A stretch of 54,336 nucleotides of DNA from Prolixibacteraceae bacterium. GTDB lineage: Bacteria > Bacteroidota > Bacteroidia > Bacteroidales > Prolixibacteraceae. The stretch covers positions 1 through 54,336 of the forward strand of contig JABGRN010000030.1 in assembly GCA_018648265.1 (NCBI GenBank). Direction: 5' to 3'. Positions 4,816 through 22,909 of this stretch are shown here, in pieces (the first letter of the stretch is position 1; each line of letters opens with the position of its first letter). Made by a program: the position numbers and the translations under genes. Under the pieces are notes generated by a model. That model was not told the origin of the DNA. It did no database searches and saw only the letters and a list, made by a program, of their open reading frames with translations.

Positions 4816-5307
4816 TTATTGCGGACCTAATGGGATTGTGTACGAATAACTTTTTTTAGGTTTTTGCTCATTTTCCTTTACCGTTTCTTTGGTAAGCTTA
4901 TAACTAATTTTCTTTTCAGGTGGAAGTTTAAACTCAATCCTGAATTTTTTCCGGGTTTTTACCCTTAACCCCCTATTTTTAACGCTGCCAAATTGAACAT
5001 TTTTTATCAAACGAATAGCTTCTTCGTTACAACCACCAGCTAATCCTTTTTCAATTATTGCATCGAGAACATCACCGTTGTCGTTAATCTCGGCTCTTAA
5101 ATGTACAACTCCCTGAATTCGTTGTTCCAAAGCCTTTTTGGGGTAAATTAAATTCGATCTTATGTATTTTTTAAAAGCTTCTTTACCACCTGGAAATTCA
5201 GGAAGTTTTAGGAATTTTTTCTTTGGATTTTTCACTTTTGGATTATGTTTTATCAAATGTAACAAAAAGTTTAAAGAAAAGGTTGTTATCAAATTAACTG
5301 ATAACAA
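4816..5307 (-). CDS. TonB C-terminal-domain protein
   Basis: A 163-residue protein with a single TonB_C-like domain (about residues 36-135). The family signature is visible as LPEFPGGKEAFKKYIRSN, then YPKKALEQRIQGVVHL, NDNGDVLDAII and CNEEAIRLI. The usual W-x-PG-K-x-xG segment of the last strands is replaced by a divergent basic sequence (KNRGLRVKTRKKF). No ATG exists in the open frame before the domain: TTG at 5307 is the best start, and a GTG downstream is possible. The frame opens just inside the flavodoxin stop region. A hydrophobic N-terminal stretch may act as a membrane anchor. It is last in the E2-E1-flavodoxin operon (23-base gap). Its partner receptor is unknown. Confidence 0.7.
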   Translation of the reverse strand: MLSVNLITTFSLNFLLHLIKHNPKVKNPKKKFLKLPEFPGGKEAFKKYIRSNLIYPKKALEQRIQGVVHLRAEINDNGDVLDAIIEKGLAGGCNEEAIRLIKNVQFGSVKNRGLRVKTRKKFRIEFKLPPEKKISYKLTKETVKENEQKPKKSYSYTIPLGPQ

Positions 5308-18692: not shown

Positions 18693-19943
18693 TTATTCTT
18701 CAAAAAACAAATCTTCTTTTATTTTGGTAATCCGATCGAGGGCATAATTTGTGTTTTTACCACTCTCACCAGCTTCTTTTAAATAAATTAGATAATAATT
18801 TAGTGCCAGCGTTTTATTCGAATTATATTCTTCGTAAGTTGTTGCTATTTCAAATAAAACTTCGTGGTTTGTAGGATTCAGTTCATTCGATTTTACCAAT
18901 GCTGCAATCGATTCAACAAACTCTCGCTGCTGACCATGAATTTGTCCAAGGTGATGATACATTTCGGATAAATATTCCGGAATCGACATATCAATGGCCC
19001 CTTCCATAAAACTCTCTGCCAACTCATAATTGACCATTTTTTTGTTGCATAAACTCATATAAAACAAAACGAACGGATCGTTTGGAGATAAATGGTACAG
19101 CGAACTTAAAACTTTTAAAGCTTTGGTTTCGTCTTTTGCAAAATAGCAGCTAATTGCATAATTCAAATTTGTTTTAAACAAGGAATCGCCACCAGCCGAA
19201 AAGTAGTTTTCAAATTCCGGCATTGCCAAATCGTATTGTTTCGAGCCAAAATAATAATTGGCAAATTCGAGATAAAAACCAGCGTCTCCGGGAAATTCAT
19301 TTAATCCATTCTCCAACAAATTCACAATTTTTTCTGGTTCTTTTTTTCTGCTGTACAATCGCGAAAGATTAAAATAAGTTGAGTAATCGCGGGGATTTTG
19401 TTCTAAAACTTTTTCATATAGATGGATAGCCTGAACCTTTTTTGCAGTTCGGAATGAACAAAAAGCAAGTTGTTTATTCCAATAAAGATTTGTTGAATCT
19501 TTTTTGTAAATAGCGGAAAAAACATCGAAAGCACTTTTGTATTGTTTTAAATTAATTAAGCTCCTGCCAAGTTTTGCTGCCAACGATAAATTAGAAGGTT
19601 CGAGTTGAACCGCTTGTTGAAAATAATTAACCGCATCGTGATAATTACCAATTGCTGAGAGGCTTTCAGCCATTTCATTTAAAATCTCAACATTTTTTGG
19701 ATCATATTGTTGTGCTTTTGAAAAAGCAAAAATGGCTTCCTGATAATTTTGAAGGCTCTGATTTACTATCCCTTTTTTGAAATACAGTTTAGCAGAAGGA
19801 TTTATTTCTATTTGAGAATTAATTTGCAAAAGTGCCTCTTCGTAGTTTTTGTTCAGGATTAATAAATCGATTTTATCCTGCGAAAAAGAATTTAGTGAAA
19901 AACAAAGCGTGAAGATAAATAACAAGTGTTTTCTAGTTTTCAT
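18693..19943 (-). CDS. Exported TPR-repeat protein
   Basis: A 416-residue protein with a signal peptide (MKTRKHLLFIFTLCFSLNSF, cleaved near SQ) and about ten tetratricopeptide repeats to the C-terminus, for example YQEAIFAFSKAQQYDPKN and YHDAVNYFQQAVQLEPSN. Such proteins act as periplasmic scaffolds. No enzymatic motif is seen. The start is ATG at 19943: the frame is open to 19970, but the signal peptide starts at 19943. It lies downstream of the M56/TonB_C gene with a strong hairpin between them (19961-20015), so it may be a separate unit or receive read-through. Confidence 0.85.
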   Translation of the reverse strand: MKTRKHLLFIFTLCFSLNSFSQDKIDLLILNKNYEEALLQINSQIEINPSAKLYFKKGIVNQSLQNYQEAIFAFSKAQQYDPKNVEILNEMAESLSAIGNYHDAVNYFQQAVQLEPSNLSLAAKLGRSLINLKQYKSAFDVFSAIYKKDSTNLYWNKQLAFCSFRTAKKVQAIHLYEKVLEQNPRDYSTYFNLSRLYSRKKEPEKIVNLLENGLNEFPGDAGFYLEFANYYFGSKQYDLAMPEFENYFSAGGDSLFKTNLNYAISCYFAKDETKALKVLSSLYHLSPNDPFVLFYMSLCNKKMVNYELAESFMEGAIDMSIPEYLSEMYHHLGQIHGQQREFVESIAALVKSNELNPTNHEVLFEIATTYEEYNSNKTLALNYYLIYLKEAGESGKNTNYALDRITKIKEDLFFEE

Positions 19944-19960
19944 GGATTTTATATTATACC

Positions 19961-20015
19961 ATTTCCACATAAGTGGGAATCTTTAATTTGAAACAGATTC
20001 CCACTTTGTGGAAAT
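19961..20015 (-). terminator. Long near-perfect hairpin between the M56/TonB_C and TPR genes
   Basis: A 22-base left arm (19961-19982) pairs with a 21-base right arm (19995-20015) with one bulged base. It lies 50 bases past the stop of the M56/TonB_C gene. The T-run on the minus strand is weak, so it could also be a processing or attenuation element. Confidence 0.55.
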
Positions 20016-20065: not shown

Positions 20066-21484
20066 TTACTGAAGTACAAAATTTATAGGAACTGTGTAAC
20101 TAACATTTACCGCTTGACCTCTCTGTTTGCCGGGTTTCCATTTTGGAAGGCCATTCACCACCCGCAATGCTTCTTTATCGAGAGACGGATTAACACCACG
20201 AGCTATTTTGCAGTTTGCAACTGTACCATCTTTTGAAACAACAAATGTAACGTAAACCTTTCCCTGCACACCATTTTCCTGAGCAACTTTCGGATACTTA
20301 ATTGCGCTAGCGATGTATTTTCTTAATGCCAATTCACCACCTGGAAATTCTGGCATATCTTCAACAATAAAGAAAATTGGATCCTCACTGTCTAATTTTT
20401 TAATTGTAACAATCTCTTTCTTAACTAACAGTACATTTCCAAAACTATCATTTACAATCTCGAAATCTGAACCTCCAGAAAAAATACTTTTTAACTTTTC
20501 CAATCCTTCTGAAGTTGCTTCTATTTTTATCTTTTCATCTAGCAAAGTAAGTTTCATTTCCATTGATTGCTCTTCCACTGTTTGTTCAACTTCTATCGAC
20601 TCCTTTTGCTCGCAGGCAAAAGCAATTACAAGTGCAGCAGCTATTAAAATTCCAAACACTACTTTTGTGATTGCCAATTTTGATGATTTTATTTTTGATA
20701 TCATTTTAATTCTACTTTTAATTAATGAATAATTGAAATTGTTGGCGATAACCAATTGTCCACCAACAAATTGATTTAGTAATAATTGTTTGTATTGTGC
20801 GGGACTGACACCCGAATTTAGTACGGCCTGGTCGGCCAGGAATTCGTGATTCTCGCGGATCACCCTTTTTAAAATCCACATAAACGGGTTGAACCATTGA
20901 AAAAAAGTCATTATTTCCAATATTATTACATCGAAAGTGTGGCTTTGTTTTATGTGCTCCATTTCGTGAGCAAGCATTTTTTCATACCCTTTTTCTCCCC
21001 TTTTTTCAGGATTTATAAAAACGTAACTTAAAAAAGAAAACGGACTGAAATATTTATCAATCGAAACAAATTTCACCAATCCAATTTTTTCTACCTGATT
21101 TTTTCGGATTAAAATTAAAATCTGAATCAAGCGGAAAACAAACCGCCCAAGAAAAAATAACAAGCCTGCCAAATAAACCAGAATTATTATTTTACTTGAA
21201 CTAATAGATTGTTCAACAGTCCCGGAAAATCCACGGCCATAAATTGTAACGGCCTCCATTAAATTTCGATAAGGAGTTACTGTTATTTCCGCTAACAACA
21301 CAGGTTGCGGGTTGTAAACACGAAATTTGAGAAAAGGTAACAAAATGGAGAACGTAACCGAAATCAAAAGAAATATCCGGTTTAGCCTGAAAAAAGTTTC
21401 TTTTCGTAAAAACAGGATGTAAATTAACGATAGCAAAGCCAAACTTACCCCCGACTCTATCAAAAAATTTACTGCGCTATTCAT
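20066..21484 (-). CDS. M56 (BlaR1-like) membrane peptidase with C-terminal TonB_C domain
   Basis: A 472-residue protein. Membrane helices at about 5-25, 36-53 and 97-126 precede an M56 zinc peptidase domain with HEMEH at 173-177 and a downstream ENHEFLADQAVL segment. Another membrane helix follows at about 272-290. The outside part ends in a TonB_C domain (about 385-472) with MPEFPGGELALRKYI and LPKWKPGKQRG. In BlaR1/MecR1 the equivalent outer part is a beta-lactam sensor. Here it is TonB_C, so a different ligand is expected. The gene overlaps the BlaI-type repressor by 8 bases (ATGAATAG), the usual repressor-peptidase pair in which the peptidase inactivates the repressor. Confidence 0.9.
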   Translation of the reverse strand: MNSAVNFLIESGVSLALLSLIYILFLRKETFFRLNRIFLLISVTFSILLPFLKFRVYNPQPVLLAEITVTPYRNLMEAVTIYGRGFSGTVEQSISSSKIIILVYLAGLLFFLGRFVFRLIQILILIRKNQVEKIGLVKFVSIDKYFSPFSFLSYVFINPEKRGEKGYEKMLAHEMEHIKQSHTFDVIILEIMTFFQWFNPFMWILKRVIRENHEFLADQAVLNSGVSPAQYKQLLLNQFVGGQLVIANNFNYSLIKSRIKMISKIKSSKLAITKVVFGILIAAALVIAFACEQKESIEVEQTVEEQSMEMKLTLLDEKIKIEATSEGLEKLKSIFSGGSDFEIVNDSFGNVLLVKKEIVTIKKLDSEDPIFFIVEDMPEFPGGELALRKYIASAIKYPKVAQENGVQGKVYVTFVVSKDGTVANCKIARGVNPSLDKEALRVVNGLPKWKPGKQRGQAVNVSYTVPINFVLQ

Positions 21485-21863
21485 TTTCTTTCGGATTTTC
21501 GTTTTCTATGTCGCGTTTCACATCTTTTACCAATTCGTCCAAATCAGATAAACTCATGTTATCTTCTTTGGCGAAAAAAGAAACCATCTCCTGAAAAGAG
21601 CCGCTAAAATAATTGCGCATAAAGTTTTTCATAAATAAACGGGTGTAATCTTTTCTTGAAATAAGAGGAAAATACTCATGTGTTTTTCCGTAAGCATTGT
21701 GCCCGATAAAACCTTTTTTTTCTAAAATCCGAATGATAGTTGAAACCGTATTGTAAGCCGGTTTTGGGATCGGCATTTTCTCAATAATATCTTTTACAAA
21801 TGCTTTTTCCAACTTCCATAATAATTGCATAATCTGCTCTTCTGCTTTTGTTAATTCTTTCAT
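21477..21863 (-). CDS. BlaI/MecI-family repressor
   Basis: A 128-residue winged-helix repressor. The N-terminal half matches the family: LTKAEEQIMQLLWKLEKAFV, then YNTVSTIIRILEKKGFIGH with GKTHEYFPLI in the wing. The C-terminal half is the dimerisation region. It overlaps the M56 peptidase gene by 8 bases. A 16-bp palindrome of the BlaI-operator type lies 60 bases upstream (21923-21938) and three more lie upstream of the next gene. I infer that it controls both itself and the double TonB_C gene. No beta-lactamase gene is nearby. Confidence 0.93.
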   Translation of the reverse strand: MKELTKAEEQIMQLLWKLEKAFVKDIIEKMPIPKPAYNTVSTIIRILEKKGFIGHNAYGKTHEYFPLISRKDYTRLFMKNFMRNYFSGSFQEMVSFFAKEDNMSLSDLDELVKDVKRDIENENPKENE

Positions 21864-21922
21864 TTATTTAGAATTTATAGATTATAAAACACAAGATTTT
21901 ATATAACAAAAATTATACCTAA

Positions 21923-21938
21923 AACTAAATAATTAGTT
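21923..21938. promoter_or_regulatory. BlaI-type operator, copy 1
   Basis: AACTAA-ATAA-TTAGTT, a perfect 6-4-6 inverted repeat. It lies 60 bases upstream of the repressor ATG and just past the stop of the double TonB_C gene. The same palindrome occurs three times upstream of that gene. Confidence 0.75.
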
Positions 21939-21944
21939 AATAAA

Positions 21945-22739
21945 CTACTGCTTTAGTTCTTTGTTTGGATTATCACCGTTAGACAATGCAAAATTTATTG
22001 GAACTGTAAAACGAACATTTACTAATTTTCCTCTCTGTTTTCCTGGTTTCCAGGTTGGCAAACTGTTTATAACCCTCAAAGCTTCTTTATCGAGAGTTGG
22101 ATGAATACTCCGCTCAATTTTTGATTGCTTAACATTTCCATCTTTCGCAACAACGAACGAAACGAAAACTTTGCCCTGGATTCTTTCTTTTCTTGCCTCT
22201 TCCGGATATTTTACACTTTTCGAAATATAAGTTCCAAGTGCTTCTTTCCCACCCGGAAATACGGGCATTTCTTCAACAATTAAGAATACTGGTTCTTCAT
22301 CATCTGTTGCTACAGTTGTTTCATTTTTTGAACCACCATCTAATGCAAAATTAATTGGTACGGTAAATGAAACTTTAACGGTCTCTCCTCTTTGCTTTCC
22401 GGGTTTCCATGTTTTCAATAAATTCATTACCCGTAAAGCTTCTTTATCCAGCAGCGGATCCACTCCCCTGGCTATTTGTGGCCTTTCAATACCACCCAAT
22501 TCGTTCACAATAAATGTAATATAAACTTTACCAGAAACTCCTTTTTTTCGAGCTTCTGCAGGGTACTTAATTAGTTCTGCGATATCTTTACGAATCGCTT
22601 CTTCCCCACCCGGATATTCCGGCATTTCATCGACTATATAAAAAATATCACTATTTTTTTTCTTCTCCTGTGCATTGGTTTGAATTGAAATTAATGCAAA
22701 CATAAATACTGTTGAAAAGATCAACTTTATTGTTTTCAT
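21945..22739 (-). CDS. Secreted protein with two TonB_C domains
   Basis: A 264-residue protein with a signal peptide (1-23, ending QTNAQ) and no later membrane segment. Two tandem TonB_C domains follow. The first (about 30-131) has MPEYPGGEEAIRKDI and LKTWKPGKQRGETVKV. The second (about 150-253) has MPVFPGGKEALGTYI and LPTWKPGKQRGKLVNV. Both match the TonB_C domain of the M56 protein at 20066-21484 closely. With no N-terminal anchor it cannot work as an ordinary TonB. A role as soluble binding partner or signal in the BlaI circuit is an inference. It sits upstream of the repressor gene, under a promoter covered by two operators. Confidence 0.88.
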   Translation of the reverse strand: MKTIKLIFSTVFMFALISIQTNAQEKKKNSDIFYIVDEMPEYPGGEEAIRKDIAELIKYPAEARKKGVSGKVYITFIVNELGGIERPQIARGVDPLLDKEALRVMNLLKTWKPGKQRGETVKVSFTVPINFALDGGSKNETTVATDDEEPVFLIVEEMPVFPGGKEALGTYISKSVKYPEEARKERIQGKVFVSFVVAKDGNVKQSKIERSIHPTLDKEALRVINSLPTWKPGKQRGKLVNVRFTVPINFALSNGDNPNKELKQ

Positions 22740-22760
22740 GACTCTAATTTTTAAATATTA

Positions 22761-22788
22761 AACTTTAAACTCTGAACTCTGAACTCTT
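22761..22788. repeat. Heptanucleotide repeat in the leader of the double TonB_C gene
   Basis: Four heptamers, AACTTTA, AACTCTG, AACTCTG and AACTCTT. Read on the minus strand they are AGTTCAG-type units, and 27 of 28 bases match the repeat inside the sorting-domain coding sequence at 44299-44326. Confidence 0.8.
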
Positions 22789-22802
22789 TTGGATATCCTG
22801 TT

Positions 22803-22833
22803 CAAATATATAACTAAATTATTAGTTTTCAAA
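22803..22833 (-). promoter_or_regulatory. Bacteroidota-type promoter of the double TonB_C gene
   Basis: On the minus strand, TTTG (22833-22830), a 19-base spacer and TATATTTG (22810-22803) match the TTTG-N19-TAnnTTTG pattern of the group. The ATG is 63 bases downstream of the -7 box. Operator copy 2 fills the spacer and copy 3 overlaps the -33 element, an arrangement expected for repression. Confidence 0.7.
22812..22827. promoter_or_regulatory. BlaI-type operator, copy 2
   Basis: AACTAA-ATTA-TTAGTT. It lies wholly between the -33 and -7 elements of the promoter at 22803-22833. Confidence 0.8.
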
Positions 22834-22847
22834 CTAATTTCTTAGTT
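22832..22847. promoter_or_regulatory. BlaI-type operator, copy 3
   Basis: AACTAA-TTTC-TTAGTT. It starts exactly 20 bases after copy 2, so two dimers could bind on the same face of the helix. It overlaps the -33 element. Confidence 0.8.
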
Positions 22848-22893
22848 AATTGCAACATTCATCCATAATTCACTGATTACAAATTTGTTATAC

Positions 22894-22909
22894 AACTAAG
22901 AGCTTAGTT
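22894..22909. promoter_or_regulatory. BlaI-type operator, copy 4
   Basis: AACTAA-GAGC-TTAGTT. It lies 47 bases beyond copy 3, upstream of the promoter. It could be an auxiliary site for looping or cooperative binding. Confidence 0.7.

Follow-up and report, generated by a model that had tools for sequence, protein, structure and literature searches.

The BlaI-BlaR1 and MecI-MecR1 systems of Staphylococcus and Bacillus licheniformis place a PF03965 repressor beside an M56 membrane protease with an HExxH motif. Release of the repressor through its M56 partner, and two operators layered on one promoter, are both known in the BlaI family (PMC7253601, PMC9834060, PMC8457756), and a TACA-N2-TGTA operator core has been reported for its Gram-positive members (PMC7253601, PMC5341023). 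The same pairing of repressor and protease occurs in a Prolixibacteraceae bacterium (Bacteroidota; assembly GCA_018648265.1), on contig JABGRN010000030.1, of which we analyzed positions 1 to 54,336 (54,336 bases; the window). There, a BlaI-type repressor gene and an M56 protease gene are accompanied by proteins with the C-terminal TonB domain (TonB_C) and by five palindromic dyads, which almost certainly are BlaI operators. We consider it very likely that the locus is an autoregulated BlaI/M56 switch, in which BlaI acts on tandem dyads and an M56-TonB protein senses the Ton system or the cell envelope. In Bacteroidota, glycans, vitamin B12, and iron enter through TonB-driven transporters (PMC12578637), and the haemin-responsive expression changes of Porphyromonas gingivalis include a BlaI-family gene that adjoins an M56 gene (PMC10470040).

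Tandem dyads and promoters

Exact copies of AACTAA-N4-TTAGTT occur at 21923..21938 (dyad 1, AACTAAATAATTAGTT), 22812..22827 (dyad 2), 22832..22847 (dyad 3), and 22894..22909 (dyad 4). All four had been located, with the same spacer, in a preliminary description of this DNA, and none appears in any of 100 dinucleotide-preserving shuffles of the window. That description noted no other copy, which is right for exact copies but overlooks a dyad at 21943..21958 (dyad 1b, AACTACTGCTTTAGTT) with one mismatch in the 12 fixed bases, an exact ACTA-N6-TAGT core, and an overlap with the stop codon of the TonB_C gene. Because dyad 1b lies 20 base pairs (bp) from dyad 1, a tandem pair precedes blaI just as a pair of the same spacing (dyads 2 and 3) precedes the TonB_C gene. 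The layout of four exact operators is therefore better read as five dyads, in two 20-base tandem pairs plus one outlier, dyad 4, which lies 62 bp upstream of the second pair. At up to two mismatches the window holds 11 matches versus 8.08 expected, which is not unusual, so information resides only in the near-perfect copies.

Dyads 2 and 3 are in register with a promoter, P1 (22803..22833, minus strand; TTTG-N19-TATATTTG), the only full match to TTTG-N19-TANNTTTG in the region and one of the Bacteroidota type. Dyad 2 falls wholly inside the P1 spacer and dyad 3 covers the leading TT of the -33 TTTG, so the coordinates bear out the earlier placement of these two copies on the spacer and -33 element. 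The promoter pattern occurs twice in the window versus 0.98 expected, and the P1 match alone is therefore weak evidence. Dyad 1, as previously proposed, precedes the repressor gene. Beneath the pair in front of blaI we found a weak sigma-70-like sequence, P2 (TTAACT-N17-TATAAT; 21912..21940, minus strand), but such matches are no commoner than in shuffles (13 versus 11.2), and TANNTTTG is absent at the usual offset from this pair.

Conservation in relatives

We compared 80 loci of relatives whose BlaI is 56 to 90% identical to that of the window. Within 1.3 kilobases (kb) upstream of blaI, exact ACTA-N6-TAGT occurs 189 times in 101,069 bases, versus 4.0 in mononucleotide shuffles (which, here and in the 98-region scan below, keep base composition and not dinucleotides) and 7 in 98,913 bases downstream. 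At least one exact upstream dyad is present in 73 of the 80 loci. An exact pair at 20 bases is present in 57, rising to 67 if one mismatch per dyad is allowed, and spacings other than 20 yielded no pair between 15 and 24 bases, and no exact pair up to 25, in these loci. The register with the promoter is also retained: TANNTTTG stands closely behind 48 of 78 exact pairs, in 45 cases two bases after the second dyad, and many of the 30 exact pairs without it are blaI-proximal. The outlying dyad recurs in near relatives, 61-64 bp upstream of the pair.

Two observations concern the blaI-proximal pairs. They often have no -7 element at the usual offset, which may point to a roadblock or to another type of promoter, and one group of them shares the linker TTGACGAA (7 of 78 pairs: L036, L039-L041, L045, L049, and L053).

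The perfect tandem motif is present in 80 of 120 genomes of the family, a set that overlaps the 80 loci and is not independent of them, and the reversed control motif is present in none of the 120. Outside the source genome, at least 29 tandem loci were found, of which 24 have BlaI within ~1.5 kb, four are beside TonB_C genes, and one is beside a TPR gene. In one genome the pair precedes tonB (L256). In other genera of the family, a second tandem pair precedes a TPR-like gene (L254), and another precedes a gene for an outer-membrane protein resembling TonB-dependent receptors, with no BlaI in the stretch examined (L255). A perfect tandem near ABC-permease-like genes (L257, G038:C316:17883-17916), with no BlaI in 5.5 kb, may be a distant regulon member or a chance occurrence. 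Three loci titled Candidatus Aminicenantes (L055, L056, and L059) combine an AACTA-type BlaI and a 20-bp pair with an M56 frame that has no TonB domain match; they may reflect transfer or mis-binned contigs.

Distribution in the source genome

The source genome (5,583,361 bases in 164 contigs) contains only five exact copies of AACTAA-N4-TTAGTT, four of them in this locus. The scan proposed earlier thus returned a palindrome nearly confined to this locus rather than hundreds of scattered copies. With one mismatch allowed, dyads occur at 54 places, below the 123 of the reversed control pattern, and we reject a large scattered regulon. The fifth exact copy (L005, C109:14559-14574) is single and lies ~120 bases before what by eye is an oxidoreductase-like frame. 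The only perfect ACTA-N6-TAGT-N6-ACTA-N6-TAGT tandems are the two in the window, and the only ones with one or two mismatches are at a second BlaI locus, on contig C42. At up to three mismatches there are 15 places, two of them at a BlaI locus on C89, but these carry no weight because the control yields 45.

There are five BlaI genes in this genome, each with an M56-like frame downstream (identified by family scan for the window locus, C89, and C143, by tblastn for C42, and by eye for C37). The four paralogues are preceded by dyads of their own: AACTG arms (AACTGA) three times at 20 bases at C89, TACTA arms (TACTAT) at C42, AACTA arms with a 7-base spacer at C143 (L249, upstream of 1147), and CTCTA arms, the least clear of the four, at C37. 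The 7-base spacer at C143 resembles the half-site spacing reported for BlaI_0696 of Clostridium thermocellum (PMC8457756). Beside the C89 BlaI is a 1357-amino-acid M56 protein (L248, 2190-6263) with a TonB_C domain, two carboxypeptidase-regulatory-like stretches, and three Plug-like stretches. From its domains, this protein may be a second, more elaborate uptake-like sensor.

Genes and proteins of the locus

The repressor gene, blaI (21477..21863, minus strand), encodes 128 amino acids that match PF03965 (2.4e-32; 112.1 bits versus a cut-off of 22.6) over residues 4-114, near full length. Its nearest structure in the PDB is MecI (1okr; phmmer, 3.1e-13). Phe97 aligns with MecI Phe102, the residue after the cleavage site, and over 180 aligned rows this column contains F in 121, L in 38, A in 12, M in 8, and T in 1.

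Overlapping blaI by 8 bases is the gene of the putative sensor protease (20066..21484, minus strand; 472 amino acids), with an M56 domain (PF05569, 1.8e-10; 40.9 bits versus a cut-off of 31) and a TonB_C domain (PF03544, 7.5e-23). Hydropathy indicates four membrane segments (residues 8-26, 34-52, 99-117, and 270-288). An HEMEH motif at 173 falls between the third and fourth, and H173, E174, H177, and E214 do not vary among 32 aligned M56 proteins. Profile matching placed BlaR1 (8exp) over 8-288 and TonB over 385-469, and a fold search with a structure model ranked BlaR1 first and TonB domains next. Only domain identity was used from this model because its quality is middling (mean predicted local distance difference test score, pLDDT, 70.9; predicted template modelling score, pTM, 0.45). 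The C-terminal TonB domain is predicted to be periplasmic. No match to a penicillin-sensor (class-D-like) domain was found in this protein, for which Pfam gives M56 and TonB_C only, and the NCBIfam model blaR1_generic scores 36.1 bits against a cut-off of 400, covering residues 164-288 only. Among the six proteins scanned at the locus, none matches a beta-lactamase. Cys291, just after the last membrane segment (FACEQKES), is at least 90% conserved in 32 M56-TonB_C relatives and could be a lipidation or shedding site of the sensor domain; in BlaR1, signal peptidase cleaves at the boundary of the sensor (PMC9834060).

The output gene behind P1 (21945..22739, minus strand) encodes 264 amino acids with two TonB_C stretches (PF03544, 3e-40). 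The protein looks secreted, in that a signal-peptide-like segment at residues 1-19 is the sole hydrophobic segment found. Neither a membrane anchor nor, as judged by eye, a proline-rich arm was found in it. Downstream of the protease gene, in the same direction, is a gene for a TPR protein (18693..19970, minus strand; 425 amino acids; PF07719, 6e-27), relatives of which were detected by tblastn at the equivalent place in many of the 80 loci. The order on the minus strand is dyad 4, the P1 pair, the double-TonB_C gene, the second pair, blaI, M56-TonB_C, and TPR. The dyads, their conservation, this gene order, and the domains can be read directly from the sequence. Elsewhere in the window (4816-5307) is a separate TonB_C frame of 163 amino acids that is distant from the sensor type (29% identity).

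TonB domains in sensors and outputs

The last 109 residues of the sensor are identical at 86 of 109 positions to a TonB encoded on contig C5 of the source genome, which we term separate in the sense that it lies outside this operon. The C5 protein is probably the housekeeping TonB, given its strong conservation in the family: a match at 1e-15 was found in 58 of 60 family genomes, not all of them full-length. The sensor domains of relatives are about equally close to the C5 TonB and to the window sensor. An M56-like frame is present in 73 of the 80 loci, and 64 of these 73 frames have a TonB_C domain.

We considered whether the sensor domain has been copied from TonB within each genome by gene conversion, but a tree of 83 domains does not support this. 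Most sensors fall in groups of their own, near separate TonBs and with weak support (a 54-row group, 84/77), and the sensors need four changes. The labels in this tree are partly crude, and a few neighbors of the separate TonB are labeled SEC.

In relatives, the gene upstream of blaI is often tonB itself. Among the 14 nearest relatives, eight (L021-L025, L027, L032, and L034) have a full-length anchored TonB there; the anchor is present in all eight, and a PPPP run is present in seven (none in L034, and in L032 only in one of two TonB copies). At L030 and L031 only a secreted-looking TonB_C protein is found upstream, and no TonB was found in the DNA examined upstream of blaI at L026 (548 bases only), L028, L029, and L033. 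Three dyads and the promoter directly precede TonB at seven loci (L021-L025, L027, and L034). L256 has three dyads without a promoter match. At L032, the first TonB has neither dyads nor promoter and the second has a pair and the promoter. Five genomes (G010, G030, G042, G026, and G038) have a TonB gene that follows a perfect tandem at a distance of 101 to 458 bases; L256 comes from G026, and other members of the five may coincide with organisms of the 80-locus set.

Operator arms across the BlaI family

BlaI-family genes are present in 55 of 99 genomes sampled across Bacteroidota. For 98 BlaI genes (the phylum sample plus the source-genome paralogues), we searched 300 bases of upstream DNA for any perfect 5+5 palindrome. 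A spacer of 6 ranked highest, in 82 of the 98 regions versus 37.5 in mononucleotide shuffles, followed by a spacer of 4 (76 regions, partly the same dyads). The commonest arms in these regions are AACTA, TACTA, TACGA, and TTCTA. Tandems with AACTA or TTCTA arms are typically spaced at 20 bases, and those with TACGA or TACTA arms at 21 to 31.

Arm type appears to follow the recognition helix of the repressor. Helix YNT-V/L-ST pairs with AACTA arms, TT-V/I-AT-LLKRM with TTCTA or CTCTA, AYTTVMT with TACTA, and GYTTTLK with TACGA. With a first, less strict arm caller, 75 of 179 cases were uncalled and the misfits were TGTAA, GCGGT, ACCTA, and TTCGT, one each. The final calls, which were restricted to arms with C in the third position and A or T in the second, cover 116 of 205 BlaI rows and leave 89 without a call. 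Where residue 42 is Thr, the arms end in TA in 102 of 103 called cases; where it is Ser or Lys, all 13 of 13 have other endings. For a tree, we used 92 of the 116 called rows, omitting 24 AACTA rows from close relatives and excluding the helix columns. On this tree residue 42 changes five times and the arm ending six times. The independent pairs on well-supported branches number only two, both concordant (sign test, p 0.5). Because the rows are related sequences with too few independent changes on the tree, the code is suggestive and not proven: residue 42 of BlaI may go with the ending of the operator arm. If the code is true, BlaI regulons could be read from sequence.

Proposed switch and alternative explanations

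BlaI binding, promoter occlusion, transcription as an operon, cleavage, and the signal are what we infer from these features. Two BlaI dimers would sit side by side, 20 bp or about two helical turns apart. At P1 the -33 TTTG lies in the linker between dyads and one dyad occupies the -33/-7 spacer, and we therefore propose that bound BlaI would occlude the polymerase. A third dimer, 62 bp or about six turns upstream, may act through looping or cooperative repression. The blaI-proximal pair would provide autoregulation, either because it covers a weak internal promoter or because it halts polymerases reading through from P1. The predicted operon comprises the TonB_C-TonB_C gene, blaI, M56-TonB_C, and TPR. 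Its M56 protein follows the plan of the BlaR1 membrane protease, with the penicillin sensor replaced by a TonB C-terminal domain. Engagement of a ligand by this periplasmic domain would lead the cytoplasmic protease to cut BlaI before Phe97, derepressing the operon.

What is sensed is probably the condition of the Ton system or that of the envelope touched by TonB, rather than penicillin. This is favored because the sensor domain is a near-copy of the separate TonB and the repressed genes are TonB-like, and often tonB. The earlier suggestion that a beta-lactam is not the signal would fit a TonB domain in the place of the penicillin-binding domain. A more specific version, which we put forward tentatively and regard as possible but doubtful, is that the sensor mimics TonB, competing for outer-membrane transporters or feeling their pull, so that an excess of transporters over available TonB leads to cutting of BlaI and release of reserve TonB or TonB-like proteins. 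If this is true, the locus would provide feedback on TonB supply across the envelope via regulated proteolysis of a repressor.

The local BlaI-type regulon of the preliminary description is upheld by blaI-linked conservation, by 20-base tandems in promoter register, by the near-absence of the tandem away from the module, and by arm variants that track the recognition helix. Its TonB_C outputs hold for the window but have to be modified for relatives, where a full-length TonB is often encoded behind the same promoter.

Several observations weigh against the switch as we propose it. The blaI promoter is uncertain because the blaI pair has no -7 element at the usual offset. The 20-bp pair is absent, even at one mismatch per dyad, from 13 of the 80 loci, and 40 of the 120 family genomes have no perfect tandem; nor is the 20-bp rule family-wide, since groups with other arms are often spaced at 21 to 31. 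Nine of the 73 M56-like frames have no TonB_C domain. Several of these are cut by contig ends, but those of L055, L056, and L059 are not short. The residue before the predicted cleavage site is Phe in BlaI versus Asn in MecI, and the M56 catalytic site is assigned from HEMEH and its conservation. Finally, the C5 tonB of the source genome has no perfect or near tandem pair and, by eye, no upstream dyad, so the TonB link rests on relatives and on the sensor domain.

The main rival to a Ton signal is peptidoglycan. The locus could be a switch for cell-wall damage, possibly by beta-lactams, in which either the TonB-like domain binds peptidoglycan or a muropeptide releases BlaI directly, and the TonB_C and TPR proteins act as envelope-repair factors. 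TonB-type domains can bind peptidoglycan, which counts for such a switch. So do the displacement of Gram-positive BlaI/MecI by a peptidoglycan dipeptide, reported in one study (PMC3305447), and the interpretation of BlaI systems elsewhere as beta-lactam responses (PMC8457756). The M56 protein lacks a match to a penicillin-binding domain, however, the six scanned proteins of the locus include no beta-lactamase match, and the same promoter precedes tonB in many relatives, and we consider a cell-wall switch unlikely, if deserving of attention. Less probable still is that the P1 pair is the sole operator, the other three dyads (the blaI-proximal pair and dyad 4) being left over from an earlier promoter layout. 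The blaI pair does contain the one degenerate dyad of the window and has no -7 element at the canonical offset, and in many family loci only ~142 to 171 bp, without a gene, separate the two pairs, which would suit insertion of a gene at the window locus. Yet many relatives retain the 20-bp spacing of the blaI-proximal pair, and near relatives retain the 61-64 bp distance of the outlying dyad.

BlaI binding to the dyads is itself a prediction, and an unrelated regulator could bind them, with blaI adjoining by coincidence. We find this hardly credible, as the dyads track blaI in relatives, the four paralogues carry related but different dyads, as described above, and arm type tracks the BlaI recognition helix.

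Comparison with known systems

Operators of BlaI, their pairing, and autoregulation are already known, and it is the sensor and the output that differ here. Among the literature matches listed (titles, abstract starts, and passages), none describes a BlaI/M56 switch with a TonB sensor and TonB output, and PMC12204202, on force transducers, gave no hit for M56 or BlaR. As in the BlaI/MecI systems, the dyads lie in the promoter region, and B. licheniformis has three operators (PMC3305447). Also shared are the Phe after the cleavage site, MecI as the nearest structure, and BlaR1 as the best fold match. The outer arms agree with the mec/bla consensus (PMC5341023) in its right half, but the TACA-N2-TGTA core of Gram-positive operators is found in none of the five window dyads, in which CTA/TAG arms are conserved instead. 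Unlike the BlaI/MecI systems, the window locus has a TonB domain in place of the penicillin sensor, and its outputs are TonB-like.

The C. thermocellum repressors BlaI_0696 and BlaI_1845 also control small, autoregulated regulons (PMC8457756). Their targets carry two inverted-repeat pairs with CTAT cores for four protomers, a pattern called a strict requirement (PMC8457756), and their motifs, like the window dyads, differ from TACA-N2-TGTA (PMC8457756). They differ from the locus described here in having GTCTAT half-sites five bases apart and in regulons that are interpreted as beta-lactam responses (PMC8457756). In the CopR-CopY copper repressors, two operators in 21-base repeats have been proposed to block the -35 and polymerase in two layers (PMC7253601). 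These repressors are metal-released, with an operator on TACANNTGTA, and are controlled by metal rather than by a protease.

TonB energy transducers share the C-terminal TonB domain (PF03544) with the output and sensor proteins. In the sensor, unlike the transducers, this domain is joined to a membrane protease rather than to one membrane anchor with a proline-rich arm. The BlaI family takes its name from penicillin resistance, yet 64 of the 73 M56-like frames at the 80 loci nearest to this one carry TonB_C. The locus supplies a specific operator, its register with the promoter, and a set of output genes, and it links a BlaI switch to TonB.

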